32,952 bases of DNA, from assembly GCA_025450815.1 (NCBI GenBank), contig JANWLO010000156.1, positions 1 through 32,952 of the forward strand, written 5' to 3'. Numbering within the stretch: position 1 is the stretch's first letter; each line of letters begins with the position of its first letter. Below the pieces are notes generated by a model. It was not told where the DNA came from. It saw only the letters and a program-made list of their open reading frames with translations, and made no database searches. The stretch is from Gemmatimonadaceae bacterium (GTDB taxonomy: Bacteria; Gemmatimonadota; Gemmatimonadetes; Gemmatimonadales; Gemmatimonadaceae). Positions 2,011 through 20,131 of this stretch are shown piece by piece. The position numbers were made by a program, and so were the translations under genes.

Positions 2011-2957
2011 CGCGCGATCGCGTTCACGATTACGGTGATGAGAAAGAGCACGAAGCCCACGGCCATGAGCGCGGAGAGATGCGCGTCGCTCGAGGCCTCG
2101 CTGAATTCATTGGCGAGCAGCGATGCCATGGTGTAGCCCGGAGCAAAAAGCGACGCCGCGATCTCCGGCCGGTTACCGATGAGCATCGTCACCGCCATCG
2201 TCTCGCCGAGTGCGCGACCGAGTCCGAGGATGATGCCGCCGACGATTCCCGAGCGCGCGTACGGCAGCACGGCGCCCCAGATCGATTCCCATCTCGTGGC
2301 TCCGAGCGCGAGCGCCGCCTCGCGCTGTGATCGCGGTACCGCGAGCAGCACCTCGCGCGACACCGACGCGATGTACGGCAATACCATTATCGCGAGGATG
2401 ATCCCGGCGGCCAGCATGCTCGGTCCATACGCCGGACCGGAGAAGAGACCGGTCTTGTCGAGGTGCAGGGTGTCGCGAAGGAAGGGCATCACGGGATCGC
2501 GCAGCACTGGAAGCAGCACGAAAATCCCCCAGAGCCCGTAGACCACGCTCGGAATCGCGGCGAGCAGGTCGACGAGAAATCCAACCGGCTGGCGCAGCCA
2601 TCGAGGCGCGAGCTCCGACAGAAAGAGCGACACGCCAATCGCGAGCGGCGTCGCGAGGACGAGAGCGATGATCGACGACACAATGGTGCCGTAGATCGCG
2701 GGCGCGGCTCCGAACTCGCCCTGCACCGGATCCCCGTCGCTCGACGTGAGAAAGCCGAATCCGAACTTGTGGAGCGCAGGCCATCCGGCTGAGCCGATCT
2801 CCCATGCAATCGCGAGGAGCAGGAACGGGATGCACAGCGCAAAGAAGGTGATCGCGCCGGAGTACACGCGATCGCCGATCGCCGCGCCCTGGATTCGAAG
2901 CGTCACACCATCATCCTCTTGCCTCGTCGCGATGATTGCACGCTCGGGCAACGTCAC
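1986..2957 (-). CDS. pstC: Phosphate ABC transporter permease PstC
   Basis: PstC is the partner permease of PstA, 323 residues, with a first membrane helix at about residues 33-53. The extracytoplasmic segment KFGFGFLTSSDGDP, the VYGLWGIFVLLP helix and the coupling loop EAALALGATRWESIWG are all typical of PstC. The start is a GTG at 2957-2955 that overlaps the pstS1 stop (GTGA), so translation is probably coupled to the binding protein. No defect is visible. The gene is followed by pstA with a 25-base overlap. Its role is to pass periplasmic phosphate, delivered by PstS, across the inner membrane at the expense of ATP hydrolysed by PstB. Confidence 0.95.
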   Translation of the reverse strand: MTLPERAIIATRQEDDGVTLRIQGAAIGDRVYSGAITFFALCIPFLLLAIAWEIGSAGWPALHKFGFGFLTSSDGDPVQGEFGAAPAIYGTIVSSIIALVLATPLAIGVSLFLSELAPRWLRQPVGFLVDLLAAIPSVVYGLWGIFVLLPVLRDPVMPFLRDTLHLDKTGLFSGPAYGPSMLAAGIILAIMVLPYIASVSREVLLAVPRSQREAALALGATRWESIWGAVLPYARSGIVGGIILGLGRALGETMAVTMLIGNRPEIAASLFAPGYTMASLLANEFSEASSDAHLSALMAVGFVLFLITVIVNAIARWLVWRVR

Positions 2958-4027
2958 GGCGCGCTACCCGCCGATATCGAATCGATGCGCGACGTGAGCA
3001 TCGCAATGATGGGCTGCGGAAGCGGAGCGTAGTCGAGAGACGCCGCGCTCTGCTCGCCCTTCGCGAGATACCACCGGAGAAAGTCGGTGATCTGCTTCTG
3101 CTTCCTGGCGCTGGCGATCGTGCGGGGCACGAGCAGCCAGGTGAACGACGAGATTGGATACGCACCGGCCCCCGGTGCATTCACGATCGAGATGCGGAAG
3201 TCGGTGTTCGCGGGAAGATTCGCGCCTATTCCCGCCGCCGCGGCCGTAGCGGACTCGATCGACGGCTCCACGTACTCGCCCGCCGCGTTCTGGATCGCCG
3301 CGGTGGCGAGATGGTTCTGCTTCGCGTACGCGAGCTCGGTGTAGCCGATCGCGCCGTCCGTCTGCTTTACCTGCCCGGCCACTCCCTCGTTTCCCTTCGC
3401 GCCAATGCCAACGGGCCACGACAGCTCCTTCCCCTTTCCGGGCGCGCTCGTCCACGCGGGGCTCACAGTGCTCAGGTAGTCGGAGAAGATGTAAGTCGTG
3501 CCGCTGCCGTCCGAGCGGTGAACGATCAGCACGTCCTTTTGCGGAAGCTTGACTCCCGGATTGAGCGCCGCGATGCGCGAGTCGCTCCACCTCGTGATCT
3601 TCCCCGCGAACAGATCCGCGATCACGTCTCCCGTGAGCCGGAGCGGCTTCGTGATCTCGGGAAGATTGTACGTGATCACGACAGCGCCCAACACTGTCGG
3701 GAAGTGCAGGATCGGTCCTTTCGCCTTGGCGAGCTCCGCATCCGTCATCGGCGCATCCGACGCGCCGAAGTCGACGGTGCCTTCGGTGAGCTGGCGAATT
3801 CCGCCACCCGAGCCGATCGACTGATAGTTGATCTTGACGCCGGTAGCCGACGCGTAGTCCGAGAACCACTTGCTGTAGATCGGATACGGGAAGGTTGCTC
3901 CGGCGCCCGTGAGGTCGGCGCCGCTCGACGATCTCACCGTCGCCGTATCGGTGGTGCCGGCGCGGTGCTCGCCGCCACAGGCGAGCACCGCAGCCATCAA
4001 AATCGCCAGCAGAATACGTGAGTTCAC
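2954..4027 (-). CDS. pstS: Phosphate-binding lipoprotein PstS (copy 1, operon with pstCAB)
   Basis: This is the phosphate-binding protein of the Pst importer, 357 residues from the GTG start at 4027-4025. That start has GGAG seven bases upstream, and its first residues VNSR match the start of the paralogue at 6503. An upstream ATG at 4063 is open but lacks such support. The hydrophobic N-terminus ends in a lipobox (AVLAC, Cys17), so the mature protein should be lipid-anchored. The mature part has the PstS ligand motifs GAGATFPYPIYSKWF, SIGSGGGIRQL, DFGASDAPM and RSDGSGTTYIF. It shares long nearly identical stretches with pstS2. It heads pstS1-pstC-pstA-pstB1-pstB2, with a Pho-box-like site about 77 bases upstream. 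The copy in this operon is the lipoprotein, whereas pstS2 has an ordinary signal peptide. Confidence 0.95.
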   Translation of the reverse strand: MNSRILLAILMAAVLACGGEHRAGTTDTATVRSSSGADLTGAGATFPYPIYSKWFSDYASATGVKINYQSIGSGGGIRQLTEGTVDFGASDAPMTDAELAKAKGPILHFPTVLGAVVITYNLPEITKPLRLTGDVIADLFAGKITRWSDSRIAALNPGVKLPQKDVLIVHRSDGSGTTYIFSDYLSTVSPAWTSAPGKGKELSWPVGIGAKGNEGVAGQVKQTDGAIGYTELAYAKQNHLATAAIQNAAGEYVEPSIESATAAAAGIGANLPANTDFRISIVNAPGAGAYPISSFTWLLVPRTIASARKQKQITDFLRWYLAKGEQSAASLDYAPLPQPIIAMLTSRIDSISAGSAP

Positions 4028-4103
4028 GAATGCACTCCGGGAATTCGAGAGGGAGACATGCATGAAAGATGCGACCCGCCGTCCACATCATGAGGCCGGC
4101 CCT

Positions 4104-5468: not shown

Positions 5469-6503
5469 TCAGCGTGATGCCATCGTGATGGTGCCCAGGC
5501 GCTTCTCAAGCTGCGCGGCCATCCTCGCGGGGAGCGGCGAGTAGTCAAGCGCCGCCGCGGATTTCTCCCCATCGCGGAGGTACCAGCGTAAGAAGTCGAC
5601 TAGCTTCCTGCCCTTCGCCGCATCCGGCTGCACCTGATAGACCAGCAGGAAGGTGAAGGACGCGATTGGATACGCGCCCTTACCGGCGGCGTTCACGATC
5701 GAGATGCGATAGTCGCTGTTCGCAGGGAGCTTAGCCGCGGCCGCAGCGGCAGCCTTCGTCACCGACTCGATCGTTGGCGTAATGAACTCACCGTCGGCGT
5801 TCTGCAAGTCAGCGAACGGGAGCGAATTCTGCTTTGCGTACGCGAGCTCGACGTAACCAATCGAGCCAGCCGTCTGCTTCACCTGACCTGCGACGCCCTC
5901 GTTACCCTTGCCGCCGAGGCCAACCGGCCACGCGAGCTCCTTCCCTTTGCCGGGCGCCTGCGCCCAGCTCGGGCTCACGCTCGACAGATAGTCCGAGAAG
6001 ATGTATGTGGTACCGCTGCCATCGGTGCGATGAACTACGAGGATGTCGCTGGACGGAAGCTTTACGCCCTTGTTCAGATTCGCGATCTGCGGGTCGTTCC
6101 ACTTCGTGACCTTCCCTGCGAAGATGTCGGCGACGAGCGGACCGGTGAGCCGAAGCGCCTTCGTGACGCCGGGAATGTTGTATGTGATGACGACGGCGCC
6201 GAGCACGGTGGGGAAGTGCAGCACCGGCGACTTGAGCTTCGCCATCTCGGCGTCGCTCATCGGTGCGTCGGAAGCTCCGAAATCCACCGTTCCCTCGGTG
6301 AGCTGGCGAATTCCGCCCCCCGAGCCGATCGACTGATAGTTGATTTTCACGCCAGTGGACGTTGCGTAGTCCGCGAACCACTTGCTGTAGATCGGATATG
6401 GGAAAGTAGCGCCGGCGCCGTTCAGATCCTGCGCCAGCAGGCTGCCAGCGAATGTGCCGGCCAGCACGCCCGCAAGGGCGATCATGCGCACACGAGAGTT
6501 CAC
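5469..6503 (-). CDS. pstS: Phosphate-binding protein PstS (copy 2, operon with porin)
   Basis: This second phosphate-binding protein has 344 residues and starts at GTG 6503-6501, with GGAG eight bases upstream. The signal peptide ends near SLLAQ (residue 24) without a lipobox Cys, so it should be a soluble periplasmic protein, in contrast to copy 1. The PstS motifs GAGATFPYPIYSKWF, SIGSGGGIRQL, DFGASDAPM and RTDGSGTTYIF are intact. A poly-Ala run (KAAAAAAAKL) in the second half is longer than in copy 1. It is followed by the porin on the same strand. A cluster of GTNAC repeats lies 48-87 bases upstream. It presumably feeds the same PstCAB channel, since no second permease set is visible. Whether the two copies differ in affinity cannot be seen. 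Confidence 0.94.
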   Translation of the reverse strand: MNSRVRMIALAGVLAGTFAGSLLAQDLNGAGATFPYPIYSKWFADYATSTGVKINYQSIGSGGGIRQLTEGTVDFGASDAPMSDAEMAKLKSPVLHFPTVLGAVVITYNIPGVTKALRLTGPLVADIFAGKVTKWNDPQIANLNKGVKLPSSDILVVHRTDGSGTTYIFSDYLSSVSPSWAQAPGKGKELAWPVGLGGKGNEGVAGQVKQTAGSIGYVELAYAKQNSLPFADLQNADGEFITPTIESVTKAAAAAAAKLPANSDYRISIVNAAGKGAYPIASFTFLLVYQVQPDAAKGRKLVDFLRWYLRDGEKSAAALDYSPLPARMAAQLEKRLGTITMASR

Positions 6504-14937: not shown

Positions 14938-15054
14938 AGATGATAACAATGCCCGATTCCGCCCATTGCGACAACGCCGCGTGACCCCCGCCAGCAGGGG
15001 GCCGTCATCTCTCACCGGCATCATCCTCGCCATTTCCGTTTCGTGTGGTGCATC

Positions 15055-15951
15055 ATGGATCTTCAGCCGATCGCAGCCCTGCTCGTCACCGGTGACTCAC
15101 CAGCCTCGCGCCTGTTGAGCGCGTCGCTCGCGCCCTCGGTGCCGTCGCGCCTCCCCGCCTTCACTCTCGTTCCAGTGCCAATGGGCGATGAGGCGCTCGC
15201 GAGACTCGCGGACCAGCGCGTCGATGTCGTGCTGCTCGATCTCACGGGGCCGCTGGACGTCGCCATGGACGTGCTCGTGCGCATGCGCATCCAGGCTCCA
15301 GATGTGCCCGTGGTGGTGCTGGTCGAGCCAGGACACAAGGGCGAGTCGAACGGTGCCGCTGCAATCGAAGTTGGCGCTTGCGACTCTGTCGTGAAAGAAG
15401 AGCTGAGCAGCGCGCTGCTCACTCGCGTGCTTCACTACGCGATCGAGCGCTATCGCCTGCACGCGACGCTCGAGCAGCTCTCGCTCACCGATCCGCTCAC
15501 AGGTCTCTACAACGCGCACGGCTTCCGCACGCTGGCCGAGCATCATCTCAAGCTCGCGCACCGCACCCGCGGACTCGTGGTCGCGGTGGCCGACGTACAA
15601 TCGCTTGCCGAGATCAATGCGTCGCACGGCCGCGACGAGGGCGACCGCGCGCTCGTGGCCGCGTCGCAGGTGCTGCGCGAGACCTTTCGCGCGTCCGACG
15701 TCATAGCCCGCATCGGCGACGATGACTTCGCGACGCTCATGCTCGATGCCGCCGACGACACCACCGACGTCGTCGCGCCACGGCTGCGTGAGCGGCTCGA
15801 CCATCATTTCCAGGCGCATCGCGGATCGCCGTGGAAGCTCGCGATGACAGTCGGAATCGTCCGCGTGGCGCCGGGGATGCACCCCGCGATCGAAGATCTC
15901 CTCGCGCAGGGCGCAGCGGTCGCCGCGGCGGAGCGGGCGCGCGTGGCGTGA
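15055..15951 (+). CDS. Receiver-like protein with degenerate GGDEF domain
   Basis: The 298-residue protein has a response-regulator-like N-terminal half (about 5-125, with VVLLDLTG around Asp62) and a GGDEF domain (about 140-290) that starts at the typical LTDPLTGLYN (144-153). The active-site loop reads GDDDF (221-225) instead of GG[DE]EF. The KxxND motif region is AEINAS, keeping the Asn but not the following Asp. Diguanylate cyclase activity is therefore doubtful; a binding or scaffold role is more likely. No inhibitory RxxD site stands out. I chose ATG 15055; a GTG at 15043 is also possible and neither has a good ribosome-binding site. It is monocistronic, about 120 bases before the methyltransferase. 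Confidence 0.85.
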   Translation: MDLQPIAALLVTGDSPASRLLSASLAPSVPSRLPAFTLVPVPMGDEALARLADQRVDVVLLDLTGPLDVAMDVLVRMRIQAPDVPVVVLVEPGHKGESNGAAAIEVGACDSVVKEELSSALLTRVLHYAIERYRLHATLEQLSLTDPLTGLYNAHGFRTLAEHHLKLAHRTRGLVVAVADVQSLAEINASHGRDEGDRALVAASQVLRETFRASDVIARIGDDDFATLMLDAADDTTDVVAPRLRERLDHHFQAHRGSPWKLAMTVGIVRVAPGMHPAIEDLLAQGAAVAAAERARVA

Positions 15952-16069: not shown

Positions 16070-16834
16070 ATGTCCGCGAAGCTGCTCACCATTGCCCGCG
16101 ATCTGCAGCGTCGAAAGGCGCGCGAGCGCCAGCAGCTCTTCGTGTGCGAAGGGGTGCGAGCCACCGAGGAGCTCGTTCGGAGCCCGCTCGTGATCCGTGG
16201 CGTGCTTGTGTCGCCAGCGCTAGTCGCCGCGACTCGCGGGGCCGAGCTCCGCAACTCGATCGACGCGCTCGGCATTCCCGTTCTCGAGCTCGACGAATCG
16301 GAGTTCGCGAGCGCGGCGTCCACGGATTCCCCACAGGGCGTGCTCGCGATCGCGGAGATCCCGAACGTCAACGCCGAATCGCTCGAGATCCCCGGGCGCC
16401 CCCGACTCCTGGTGCTCGATGCAGTGCAGGACCCGGGCAACGCCGGCACCATGCTGCGCACCGCCGCAGCGCTCGGCGCAGCCGCAACTCTAGCCGCGCC
16501 GGGTACCGTTGACCTGTGGAACGCCAAGGTCGTCCGTAGCGCAATGGGTGCTCTCTTCTACTATCCCGCGCTCTCCGTCTCCTGGGATGCGCTCGACGGC
16601 ATGCTCGCTGACCGGCAGATCCCGCTCTGGGGCGCCGACGCAACCGGCCAGCCCGTCGATAGTATCGCGCCGCCCACCTCGGTGGCGCTCGCCGTCGGCA
16701 ATGAGGGCGCCGGACTGTCGGCGGACGCGCGCACGCGCTGCGCGCGGCTGGTCGGCATTCCGCTAGCGCCAGGCATCGAATCGCTCAATGTCGCCGTCGC
16801 CGCCGGCATTCTCCTTCAGCACTTCCGCGAGTGA
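16070..16834 (+). CDS. TrmH/SpoU-family RNA 2'-O-methyltransferase
   Basis: This is a SAM-dependent RNA ribose methyltransferase of the SPOUT superfamily, 254 residues. The N-terminal part (KARERQQLFVCEG, residues 16-28) is the substrate-binding L30e-like domain typical of rRNA enzymes of this family. The catalytic trefoil-knot domain carries VLDAVQDPGNAGTMLRTA (motif 1), ALAVGNEGAGLS (motif 2) and IPLAPGIESLNVAVAAGILL (motif 3). The target nucleotide, 23S rRNA or tRNA, cannot be decided. The stop overlaps the start of the prepilin peptidase (GTGA), opening a four-gene overlapping operon. Confidence 0.92.
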   Translation: MSAKLLTIARDLQRRKARERQQLFVCEGVRATEELVRSPLVIRGVLVSPALVAATRGAELRNSIDALGIPVLELDESEFASAASTDSPQGVLAIAEIPNVNAESLEIPGRPRLLVLDAVQDPGNAGTMLRTAAALGAAATLAAPGTVDLWNAKVVRSAMGALFYYPALSVSWDALDGMLADRQIPLWGADATGQPVDSIAPPTSVALAVGNEGAGLSADARTRCARLVGIPLAPGIESLNVAVAAGILLQHFRE

Positions 16835-17679
16835 CCGAAGCCTTCGCTCCGCCCGGTGCCTGGTATTTCCCGCTGATCGCGTTTCTCTTCGGCGCCTGCA
16901 TCGGCTCCTTCCTCAACGTGTGCGTGAGCCGGTGGCCGCTCGATCAGTCGGTCGTAAAGCCGCGCTCGCGATGCCCGAAATGCGGACACGAGATTCCATG
17001 GTACGAAAACATCCCGCTCGTGAGCTGGGTCGCTCTCCGGGCGCGTTGCAGCGGCTGCAGGAATCCCATTTCGCCGATTTATCCCCTGCTCGAGCTCGTG
17101 GTCGCGCTCGGGTGGCTCGGCGCGGAGCTTCACTACGGCGCGACGCTAACCGCATTTCGAGTCGCAGTGTTCGGCACGATCCTGCTCGGCATCATGATCA
17201 CCGACGCCACGCACTACGTGATTCCCGACGGCTTCACGGTATTCGGATTCCTCTTTGCGCTCGTGGCCGCAGGGGCCGGCACGCTGCTTAGTGAAACTCT
17301 TCCGTTCGCCACCCTGTATGATTCAGTCATAGGGGCGTGCGTTGGCGCCGGCGCCATCTCGATCATCGGATGGCTCGGCGAGCTCGCTCTGAAAAAAGAA
17401 GCGATGGGCTTCGGCGACGTGACGCTCATGGCGATGGTGGGTGCCTACCTCGGGCCGGGGCGCACGCTGCTGACGATCTTCATTGGCGCGTTTCTCGGCG
17501 CAGTGATCTTTCTCGCGGTGGTCTATCCCATCACGTGGTTGCGCTGTCGCAAACGCGGCGTTCCCTTCGAGCCACCGCTCGTGCCATTCGGAGTTTTTCT
17601 TGCACCGGCCGCGATGATAGCCCTTTTGTGGGGGAGTCAGATGATGCACTGGTACGCCCACGACGTGCTGAAGCTGTGA
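16831..17679 (+). CDS. pilD: Type IV prepilin peptidase / N-methyltransferase
   Basis: This inner-membrane aspartyl protease (A24) cleaves and N-methylates type IV pilins and type II secretion pseudopilins. The 282-residue protein starts at GTG 16831. It has the first helix with FGACIGSFLNVC, the cytoplasmic methyltransferase domain with both Cys pairs (C48/C51 and C73/C76) and PLVSWVALR. The catalytic aspartates lie in ITDATHYVIPD (Asp125) and MGFGDVTLM (Asp196), within a set of about seven membrane helices. Both enzymatic halves look intact. No pilin or secretion genes are in the window. It overlaps its neighbours on both sides by four bases. Confidence 0.95.
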   Translation: MTEAFAPPGAWYFPLIAFLFGACIGSFLNVCVSRWPLDQSVVKPRSRCPKCGHEIPWYENIPLVSWVALRARCSGCRNPISPIYPLLELVVALGWLGAELHYGATLTAFRVAVFGTILLGIMITDATHYVIPDGFTVFGFLFALVAAGAGTLLSETLPFATLYDSVIGACVGAGAISIIGWLGELALKKEAMGFGDVTLMAMVGAYLGPGRTLLTIFIGAFLGAVIFLAVVYPITWLRCRKRGVPFEPPLVPFGVFLAPAAMIALLWGSQMMHWYAHDVLKL

Positions 17680-18875
17680 GCTTCGCCGACATGCTGCGGC
17701 CGAGCGGTGACACGCTCGCGCGTTTCACGCGTGATCTCACTGCGGAGGCACGTGCGGGCAGGCTCGAGCCCGTTCGCTGCCGCGACAACGAGATCGCGCG
17801 AGTGATTGACATCCTGCTGCGCCACGGGAAGAACAATCCTGCGCTGGTGGGTGCGGCTGGAACGGGGAAGACGGCGATCGCCGAGGGATTCGCGCAGCGC
17901 ATCGCCGGCGGCGCTGTTCCGTTCGCGCTGCGTAACGCGCGCGTGCTCGCTCTGGACCATGCAGGACTGCTCGCGGGCACGATGTATCGCGGGCAGTACG
18001 AGGAACGGCTCACGGCGATCGTCTCCGCGTGCTCAGAGGACCCGAGCATTATCCTGTTCATCGACGAGCTGCACAATCTCATCGGCCAGGGCGCGGCGAT
18101 GGGCGTCGCCATGGACGCGGCGAACATGCTCAAGCCTGCTCTCGTGCGCGGCGAGTTCCGTGTGATCGGCGCCACCACCGACGAGGAATACCAGCGCTGG
18201 ATCCTCGGCGATCCCGCGCTCGAGCGCCGCTTCCAGAAGATCACGGTCACGGAGCTTTCCGCGGAAGACACGCTGGCGATCCTCCAGGCGCGGCGTGAGA
18301 GACTGGAGCGCCACCACAATGTGTCGATCGCGGACGAAGCGCTCACCGCGTCGGTGACGCTGACGGATCGCTACGTCACTGATCGGGTGCGCCCCGACCG
18401 CGCGATCGACGCGCTGGACGAGGCCTGCGCGCACGCGCAGGCGACGGCGACGTATTCGCACACGACCGAGACGCTCATCCGCGAGCGCCTCGCGCTCCTG
18501 CGCGACGTCCAGCGAGTGGGGGCGCCGGTGCCGCAGCGAGAGCAGGTCGCCGAGGCGAGTCCCGATGAGGCGCTCGAGCGCATGGCGCGCTCGGGGCTTG
18601 CGGCGCTCGAGCGCTTCGGCCTCGAGCTCGAAGCGGCGTTCACTGGCGTGCGCACGCCGGAGCCTGCTCCCGCTGCCGCGCCGCCGGCGCCGGCGCCCGA
18701 CTTGCCGCGCGCTGCGAATCCCGCGCCCAGCGTCGCGCTGCCCCGCGGCGCTCGACTCGCCACCGTGGAGAGCGAACTGCAGCGGCGTTTGGTGGAAGAG
18801 GGACTGGTCGTGCGCGCGCTCGACGTCGCGCGCGTGGTCGCCGTCGCAACGGGCCGGACGGTCGAATGGCCGTGA
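17676..18875 (+). CDS. Clp-like AAA+ ATPase with a single (D1-type) ATPase domain
   Basis: This 399-residue protein resembles the first ATPase domain of ClpA/ClpB/ClpC. It starts at GTG 17676 (GTGA overlap with pilD); the longer frame upstream lies in pilD and is noise. Visible motifs are EPVRCRDNEIARVIDIL, Walker A GAAGTGKT (59-66), pore-loop region GTMYRGQYEERL (101-112), Walker B IILFIDE (125-131), sensor-1 IGATT (164-168), arginine finger ALERRFQ (181-187) and the D1 small domain with RPDRAIDALDEACA. A Pro/Ala linker (about 325-348) follows. The final segment (ARVVAVATGRTVEWP) recalls the VVSRWTGIPV motif that in ClpB and ClpC sits just before D2. There is no D2 domain, no N-domain and no ClpP-binding loop. 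Function unknown; the following lipoprotein protease overlaps its end by ten bases. Confidence 0.85.
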   Translation: MSFADMLRPSGDTLARFTRDLTAEARAGRLEPVRCRDNEIARVIDILLRHGKNNPALVGAAGTGKTAIAEGFAQRIAGGAVPFALRNARVLALDHAGLLAGTMYRGQYEERLTAIVSACSEDPSIILFIDELHNLIGQGAAMGVAMDAANMLKPALVRGEFRVIGATTDEEYQRWILGDPALERRFQKITVTELSAEDTLAILQARRERLERHHNVSIADEALTASVTLTDRYVTDRVRPDRAIDALDEACAHAQATATYSHTTETLIRERLALLRDVQRVGAPVPQREQVAEASPDEALERMARSGLAALERFGLELEAAFTGVRTPEPAPAAAPPAPAPDLPRAANPAPSVALPRGARLATVESELQRRLVEEGLVVRALDVARVVAVATGRTVEWP

Positions 18876-20131
18876 AGGGTCGCATCGGCCGGTGTGTTGT
18901 CGTCGCGCTGCTGTCGCTGCTCATCGCCGCGTGTGGACATCGCGACTCCGCCGCCGCGCAGGGTCCGTACGCGCGCGAGGTGGCGGATGCGATCCCCAAA
19001 ATCGAGAAAGCGACGGGGCTCACATACAAGCGCCCGCCTGTGGTGCAGCGCAAGACGAAGGAGGAGGTCCGCCAGTTCCTCCTCAAGCAGTTCGAGGACG
19101 AGCGCTCGCAGGAAGATCTGAACGCGCAACAGATTCTGTTGCGCCGCCTCGGGCTCGTGCCCGACACTTTCGACCTCCGCAAGACGATGCTCGATCTCTA
19201 CACCGAGCAGATCGTCGGCTTCTACGATCCGGAGACGAAGGTGCTTTACGTCGTGGACGGCGCGAAGCCGGAAGAAGTGGGATTCGTCATCGAGCACGAG
19301 CTCGTGCACGCGCTGCAGGATCAGTACACGAATCTCGATTCGCTGCTGCACATCAAGGGCGACGATGACCGCGTGCTGGCGGCGCAGTCAGTGATGGAGG
19401 GTCAGGCGACACTTGTGCCGCTCCAGACGATGCTCGGGCCCGCGGCCCAACTGCCCGGCGGCTGGGAGAAAGTGCGCGAGATGATTCGCGAGAATCAGAG
19501 CTCGATGCCGAAGTTTGCCGCGGCGCCCGAAGTGCTGCAGGAGACGCTCATCTTCCCGTATCTGAGCGGCGCGGAGTTCATGCGGCGGTTCGACGATCAG
19601 GAGCCGGGCAAGATGCCGTTCGGATCGGCGATGCCTGTGTCGTCGACACAGATCCTGCACGTGAACGCGTATTTCGGATCGCACCCTGAGCTCCCGTTGT
19701 CGATTACGCTCCCCGCTCCGCGCGGCGCGACGAGCACGTACCAGAACGACATGGGTGAGTTCGAAACTCGTCTCTTTTTCTTCCATCATCTCCAGGATCA
19801 GAACGAGGCGATCACCGCCGCGGCGGGATGGAGTGGGGACCGCTACGCGATCCTCCACTTCCCGCACGGCGACGGGATTGCGTGGGTCACCGTCTTTCGC
19901 TCGGCGGTGGATGCGGGCGAGTTCAGCGCGGCCATGCAGAAAGTGTTCGCCGCGCGCTACCCGAACGCGAAGCCCGTCGAATCACCGTCGGGAACGCACT
20001 TCACCGCGTCCGGGCGATCGATCTCGCTCGTGGGCGGCGAGGTGGGCGGACACACGGTGGTGGTGTACGTCGACGTTCCTGAGGGGGATCGCACGGATGT
20101 GTACGATCTTTCGAAGATCGAGATTCGCTAG
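18866..20131 (+). CDS. Lipoprotein zinc metalloprotease-like protein (HExxH)
   Basis: The 421-residue protein has a signal sequence ending in a lipobox (LIAAC, Cys23), so it should be anchored in an outer or inner membrane leaflet facing the periplasm. A HELVH zinc motif is at 144-148 (IEHELVHALQDQY). A Glu in MEGQAT (178) could be the third ligand, a gluzincin-like arrangement. The region TEQIVGFYDPETKVLYVV precedes it. The C-terminal 150 residues hold beta-rich sequence without a family I recognise. The start ATG overlaps the Clp-like ATPase gene, so it is the fourth gene of the overlapping operon. The stop is followed within eight bases by copy 2 of the dispersed repeat. Protease activity is inferred from the motif alone. 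Confidence 0.85.
   Translation: MAVKGRIGRCVVVALLSLLIAACGHRDSAAAQGPYAREVADAIPKIEKATGLTYKRPPVVQRKTKEEVRQFLLKQFEDERSQEDLNAQQILLRRLGLVPDTFDLRKTMLDLYTEQIVGFYDPETKVLYVVDGAKPEEVGFVIEHELVHALQDQYTNLDSLLHIKGDDDRVLAAQSVMEGQATLVPLQTMLGPAAQLPGGWEKVREMIRENQSSMPKFAAAPEVLQETLIFPYLSGAEFMRRFDDQEPGKMPFGSAMPVSSTQILHVNAYFGSHPELPLSITLPAPRGATSTYQNDMGEFETRLFFFHHLQDQNEAITAAAGWSGDRYAILHFPHGDGIAWVTVFRSAVDAGEFSAAMQKVFAARYPNAKPVESPSGTHFTASGRSISLVGGEVGGHTVVVYVDVPEGDRTDVYDLSKIEIR

Follow-up and report, generated by a model that had tools for sequence, protein, structure and literature searches.

ClpD1, a Clp-type AAA+ family of Gemmatimonadota that ends at the D1/D2 boundary and may act as a single-ring remodeller

The window analysed here, a stretch of 32,952 nucleotides from a Gemmatimonadaceae bacterium, encodes a 399-aa D1-only protein for which we use the name ClpD1. 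By sequence ClpD1 could pass for a truncated Clp subunit, yet it forms a separate family, whose members consist of a single complete D1 AAA+ module of the ClpB/ClpC (HSP100) type and have neither N-domain nor D2. Quite possibly, although we propose this only tentatively and from sequence, it is a lineage-specific HSP100 paralogue cut to one D1 ring, which would serve as a cytosolic single-ring threading ATPase or remodeller beside the usual Clp machines. The gene, its segments and its immediate neighbours lie in the window as follows.

16070..16834, + strand: SpoU-type rRNA methyltransferase, conserved upstream neighbour (Pfam, synteny)
16831..17679, + strand: prepilin peptidase PilD (A24_N_bact + Peptidase_A24), fixed upstream neighbour (Pfam, synteny)
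17676..18875, + strand: ClpD1, D1-only HSP100/Clp-type AAA+ ATPase, 399 aa (GTG start; phmmer, Pfam, alignment, AF2 model)
17706..18500, + strand: D1 AAA+ core and proximal lid of ClpD1, residues about 11–275 (motifs, Pfam, alignment)
18501..18740, + strand: variable Pro/Ala-rich insert of ClpD1, residues about 276–355, at the place of the ClpB/ClpC M-domain (alignment, AF2 model)
18741..18872, + strand: conserved C-terminal tail of ClpD1, residues 356–399, equivalent of the D1/D2 linker (alignment, AF2 model, tail HMM)
18866..20131, + strand: HExxH protein with a signal-peptide-like start, fixed downstream neighbour of ClpD1 (synteny, alignment, model)

The ClpD1 frame runs from a GTG at 17676 to a TGA at 18873–18875; judged by eye, its product has no signal peptide, and the D1 module starts at about residue 12. 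The motifs that we take to be Walker A (GAAGTGKT, residues 59–66), the pore loop (GTMYRGQ, residues 101–107), Walker B (LFIDE, residues 127–131) and the Arg-finger pair (R184 R185) follow in order. The solved structure closest to ClpD1 is ClpB (phmmer E 2e-77, query residues 13–255), and Pfam assigns AAA and AAA_lid_9, the latter to residues 195–273. ClpD1 therefore has the D1 features of HSP100/Clp class 1, namely Walker A and B, the Arg pair and AAA_lid_9, and it lacks the second ring of that class. NCBIfam models for ClpB, ClpV and ClpA match the protein over their D1 parts, far below cut-off. Neither Clp_N nor ClpB_D2-small is among the Pfam families matched by 20 ClpD1 orthologs, and AAA_2, a D2 family, is matched weakly in one of the 20. 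The M-domain of ClpB and Hsp104 is likewise missing, its place being taken by the Pro/Ala-rich insert, which contains no M-domain sequence. The ClpP-binding loop of ClpC and ClpA sits in D2, so the lack of D2 leaves ClpD1 without such a loop.

The C-terminal end of ClpD1 is a conserved property of the family. Motifs and end points were compared across 36 loci, comprising the window and 35 others. The stop falls before any D2, 1–7 residues past a conserved [VIL]-x-W, in 35 of them (the window copy ends G-R-T-V-E-W-P); in the 36th, G030, the gene is spread across two contigs: the frame runs off the end of one, and a tail-like match is found at the end of another contig of the same genome. Walker A and the aromatic pore residue are present in 34 of the 36 loci, the other two being cut by contig ends before these motifs, and Walker B and the Arg pair in 35, with one contig-cut. 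In an alignment of 20 sequences, the invariant tail residues are Gly376, Ala385, Arg386, Val388, Gly393 and Trp398. We built an HMM of this tail from the ClpD1 family and searched 87 two-ring Clp sequences at a permissive cut-off (E up to 10), which returned 82 domain hits. The TGxPV linker was covered by 52 of these hits and by 0 of 18 hits on shuffled sequences; individual hits are weak (best E 0.001), and it is their position that counts. On this sequence comparison, the last ~45 residues of ClpD1 are homologous to the D1/D2 linker. A sequencing error or a lost D2 was considered and rejected, because orthologs in other genomes end alike and the downstream gene overlaps the stop. The first-pass annotation had described a Clp-like ATPase with all D1 motifs that stops at the D1/D2 boundary in a segment like the VVxxxTGxPV linker and lacks D2, the N-domain and the ClpP-binding loop. 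Each part of that description holds: homologues share the end point, and none was shown to carry an in-frame D2 there.

Structure prediction, which had been proposed as a check, agrees with this architecture. The AF2 model of ClpD1 has a mean pLDDT of 83.4 and a confident core. Tail residues 361–399 are modelled as helix–strand–helix with pLDDT of about 93–98. The insert, by blocks of ten residues from residue 281, has pLDDT of 43–77 and contains one helix of middling confidence at 296–323. The best structural matches are ClpC, Hsp104 and ClpB NBD1 (Z 30.7–31.1). In the superposition on ClpC (9a66, an integrative model; Z 31.1, rmsd 2.4, 281 aligned), residue 399 of ClpD1 aligns to ClpC residue 491, and in Clp structures the counterpart of the tail is the final part of the D1 module. 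We read the model as showing a protein that is not cut short of its fold, a predicted complete D1 module in which a variable insert replaces the M-domain.

Selection on the gene was estimated by the Nei–Gojobori method from the window and two same-genus genomes (three pairs), with values that are rough for short segments. The dN/dS ratio of the ClpD1 gene is 0.13–0.14, and those of its neighbours over the same pairs are 0.13–0.18 (PilD), 0.26–0.31 (HExxH gene) and 0.07–0.11 (Lon). Within ClpD1, compared between the window and G002 only, the ratio is about 0.07 for the D1 core (dN 0.059, dS 0.88), about 0.09 for the tail (dN 0.091, dS 0.97) and about 0.63 for the insert (dN 0.39, dS 0.62). The D1 core and tail are under purifying selection and the insert is weakly constrained.

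ClpD1 was found in 23 of 41 genomes (its own and 40 relatives, some incomplete) and not in the other 18; G003 and G004 contain only a contig-cut part. In a sample of 150 Gemmatimonadota genomes, 26 pass E<=1e-90, and one more, G124, has a partial copy. ClpD1 thus occurs in at least 27 of 91 genomes of one Gemmatimonadota order (16/54, 9/35 and 2/2 in families f1, f2 and f3). Outside that order it was found in 0 of 59 sampled genomes at E<=1e-90, a threshold that could hide members as distant as ClpB or short contig-cut copies. Presence differs even inside genera, such as g14 (G092 with, G017 without) and g45 (G098 with, G133 without). In a scan of GTDB contigs for ClpD1-like loci, of which the best 80 of at least 594 pattern matches were considered, one of these 80 was D1-only: L094, from a Gemmatimonadetes MAG, with a match to residue 398. 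The other 79 are of two-ring length and extend at least 537 aa beyond the start of D1.

In a tree built from D1 sequences (53 rows, of which 21 are D1-only and others include six Gemmatimonadota ClpB and two ClpC rows labelled by M-region length), the D1-only rows group as a single clade (100/100), separate from both the ClpB and the ClpC rows. This clade lies outside the ClpB rows, so that a ClpB/Hsp104 assignment is not borne out; long branches meet at the clade, and its sister group is therefore unsure. Across 33 genomes including the window, pairwise ClpD1 distances correlate with those of SpoU, PilD and the HExxH protein (r 0.81–0.86; 0/999 permutations as high), and the three neighbours correlate among themselves at r 0.84–0.90. 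The ClpD1 distances fit vertical inheritance. On a tree of the three neighbours combined (54 rows, quick method), presence and absence of ClpD1 amount to 10 changes, at least six by well-supported branches. Our reading is one old origin followed by repeated loss, although the method does not tell gain from loss. ClpD1 has apparently been kept since early in the history of this order, beside normal two-ring Clp proteins, and its scattered presence indicates a dispensable role.

The surroundings of the gene are strikingly constant. SpoU and PilD precede ClpD1 in 33 of the 35 fetched loci besides the window (two contig-cut), and the HExxH gene directly follows it in 34 of 35 (one contig-cut), so that the order SpoU–PilD–ClpD1–HExxH is strictly kept and looks like an operon; the random neighbourhood that would have spoken against the first-pass annotation did not occur. 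As had been pointed out, ClpD1 overlaps both flanking genes in the window, sharing 4 nt with the prepilin peptidase gene and 10 nt with the HExxH gene; many relatives instead have gaps there, with alignment ends up to 300 bp apart. The proposed coupling to a lipoprotein protease is less firm than the kept gene order suggests: the link is only positional, and all 18 genomes without ClpD1 retain SpoU, PilD and the HExxH gene in unchanged order. There, the distance between the PilD and HExxH alignments is 32–283 bp in 15 genomes and about 3.0–3.4 kb in three. Lon, Ffh, TrmD, adenosine deaminase and other surrounding genes are also syntenic in many loci, and conserved order is therefore cheap evidence here. 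Because its neighbours persist without it in all 18 genomes, ClpD1 is a dispensable gene in a fixed slot, whose absence leaves the neighbours undisturbed.

Several other features of these loci were recorded. The slot between PilD and the HExxH gene is filled by ~3 kb in G031, G035 and G039, which have no ClpD1 (L194, L195 and L197). In G031 (L194 2991–5844), Pfam identifies an ECF sigma factor, a zf-HC2 (anti-sigma-like) protein and two DUF4097 proteins, and the ORFs of the G035 slot look like those of G031. Upstream of SpoU in the window, 15043–15951 encodes a response-regulator-like + GGDEF protein, matches to which were confined to L041 and L042, the two same-genus loci that extend far enough. 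Two substrate-binding-protein-like (PBP_like_2) genes lie on the minus strand of the window at 2954–4063 and 5472–6503, and the same stretch also encodes two BPD_transp_1 permeases, as well as a HAMP/HisKA sensor kinase that adjoins a response regulator.

The downstream HExxH protein is present in all 41 genomes searched. Its motif reads HELVH in 16 of 17 aligned copies, and the invariant columns are H144, E145, H148 and E178. DUF6782, a putative metallopeptidase family, matches 16 of the 17 copies at E<=0.01, with the window copy below the curated cut-off; the protein also resembles the Hvo_1808 family, well below the NCBIfam cut-off. No Pfam or NCBIfam match of the window copy attains the curated cut-off. 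The predicted structure (pLDDT 87.5) has a gluzincin-like N-terminal part that gives weak matches to collagenase and M1-type peptidases (Z 6–7) and a best match to the putative hydrolase 3cmn (Z 10.8), and a C-terminal domain like those of MucB/RseB, PknH and LpqN (Z 7–10). Judged by eye, a lipobox-like IAAC is present in the window copy; in some others, for example three from f3, the signal-peptide-like start has no lipobox. The HExxH protein is probably an exported protease, and a direct physical partnership with a cytosolic ClpD1 ring is unlikely.

In most but not all cases, ClpD1 comes on top of ClpB and ClpC. Two or more additional Clp-type matches occur in 18 of the 23 genomes with ClpD1 and in 17 of the 18 without it. 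Exactly one other match was found in four of the 23 (G003, G038, G025 and G030), and G036, which is 80% complete, has none. G025 and G030 (99% and 98% complete) each show one two-ring Clp of ClpC length, and no ClpB-length frame was seen in them. Replacement of ClpB by ClpD1 was considered with these two genomes in mind and set aside as not general, given the 18 genomes with at least two other matches. D1 identity between ClpD1 and two-ring Clp proteins is about 44–57%. A third HSP100 paralogue (900–984 aa or contig-cut) is present in 8 of 23 genomes with ClpD1 and 3 of 18 without, with no clear link by a reading of the counts.

Possible partners were sought among the 41 genomes with Clp_N and PilT searches, and no client, adaptor or co-occurring partner of ClpD1 was found by these means. 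Every ClpB/ClpC-class D2 (E<=1e-50) in the 23 genomes with ClpD1, some of them incomplete, shares its frame with a D1 match, and no D2-only frame of that class (PF07724, E<=1e-50) was found in them. One short D2 frame without a D1 match, G011:C302 (239 aa), whose D2 match starts inside the profile, possibly lies at a contig end; it belongs to a draft genome without ClpD1. Standalone Clp_N frames (PF02861) of about 80–320 aa occur in G018, G020, G024, G033, G034, G008, G012, G019 and G029 among the matches listed, in some genomes with and some without ClpD1 and with no visible pattern among those matches; by sequence they might be free adaptors or, possibly, contig-end artefacts.

These observations suggest how ClpD1 might work. 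The protein would form a head-to-tail oligomer like the D1 ring of ClpB and ClpC, with the Arg pair acting in trans, and would hydrolyse ATP. The aromatic pore loop would grip and pull unstructured segments of cytosolic clients, which may be picked by the pore, the variable insert or an adaptor. Because the ClpP-binding loop is missing, clients would be released remodelled or unfolded and not handed to ClpP. The tail would close the D1 fold, and its invariant Gly and Trp may cap the face that otherwise meets D2. ClpD1 would then be an accessory quality-control or remodelling factor, inessential to pilin processing or to the work of the HExxH protein. A putative specialised role as a single-ring unfoldase or chaperone, as had been suggested, is plausible. 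With more reserve, we propose that ClpD1 could be a stand-alone bacterial HSP100 that remodels or unfolds clients with nothing but its D1 ring, having been selected to function in the absence of D2, N-domain and M-domain, the Gly/Trp tail being a cap adaptation on the orphan D1 face.

The chief rival to this reading is that ClpD1 has no motor role and is a regulatory subunit: using the D1 interface that it has in common with full-length ClpB or ClpC, it would join or cap their D1 ring and modify their activity. Its Clp-like Arg pair and D1 sequence, its lack of N-, M- and D2 domains and the presence of at least one other Clp-type match in 22 of 23 genomes with ClpD1 would all suit such a subunit. 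However, strong constraint on Walker A, Walker B and the pore residues is unexpected in a passive cap, identity to the two-ring D1 is just about 44–57%, 18 genomes have two-ring Clp proteins without ClpD1, and G036, though incomplete, has ClpD1 without another Clp-type match. We therefore regard a regulatory subunit as unlikely. Another alternative, that ClpD1 works together with PilD and the HExxH protein in processing prepilins or assembling type IV pili, is suggested by the near-invariant flanking genes and by the translational overlap in the window. We consider it improbable, because PilD and the HExxH gene adjoin each other without ClpD1 in 15 of 18 genomes and keep their order in all 18, the HExxH protein looks exported and the synteny extends to Lon, Ffh, TrmD and others in many loci. 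PilT is present in all 41 genomes regardless of ClpD1, which makes co-occurrence uninformative.

Two further explanations carry little weight. ClpD1 could be one half of a split Clp whose D2-only and N-domain proteins act in trans, as with plastid ClpC1/ClpC2 of Nannochloropsis; ClpD1 has the same architecture as that ClpC1 as far as the available text of the source describes it (PMC3999925), and standalone Clp_N frames do exist in some genomes. The lack of any D2-only ClpB/ClpC-class frame in the 23 genomes makes this very improbable, as do G005, G026 and G028, which have ClpD1 and four Clp_N matches each, all in frames of 830–942 aa. A decaying Clp fragment without function would account for the scattered presence and the missing D2. 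Its low dN/dS shows that ClpD1 is no such fragment, and the conserved end point and intact motifs across three families point the same way; purifying selection refutes decay, to which we give almost no credence.

How work is shared between D1 and D2 in ClpA, ClpB and ClpC has usually been studied with mutants or with single domains engineered for the purpose. A D1-only protein shaped by natural selection would reveal which functions D1 can perform independently, and ClpD1, if it does act on its own, would be a natural test of the D1 ring's capacity. Its recognition also fixes an annotation trap, as ClpD1 could be mistaken for a truncated Clp subunit.

Compared with known systems, ClpD1 is like NBD1 of ClpB/Hsp104 in its D1 fold, catalytic motifs, aromatic pore loop, Arg pair and linker-type tail, and the spacing from the D1 start to the TG of the tail is similar to that of ClpB. 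It differs from ClpB/Hsp104 in lacking the N-domain, M-domain sequence and D2 and in forming a separate clade. With ClpC and ClpA it shares the D1 fold, its last residue aligning within ClpC as described above, but it has no D2, and hence no ClpP-binding loop, and no N-domain for adaptors. Isolated NBD1-M of Thermus thermophilus ClpB, as described in the available portion of PMC4239642, is also a D1 without D2; it binds nucleotide, forms nucleotide-induced oligomers and hydrolyses ATP, the trimer is its smallest active unit and the Arg pair is needed for oligomerization. This construct gave trimers, and a stable D1-only hexamer is therefore not assured; unlike ClpD1, it is a laboratory construct and keeps the M-domain. 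In the literature searched, which was mostly without subscription papers and so is not proof of absence from print, no bacterial D1-only Clp family was noticed, and the only natural D1-only Clp noticed was plastid-encoded ClpC1 of Nannochloropsis. According to the available text of PMC3999925, that protein has 384 aa, no N-domain and no identifiable M-domain, as in ClpD1, but it is accompanied by the D2-only ClpC2 and a candidate N-domain ORF. A D1-only Clp thus has a precedent in Nannochloropsis plastids, from which ClpD1 differs in being bacterial and usually additional to two-ring Clp proteins, with no D2-only partner found in the 23 genomes that carry it.
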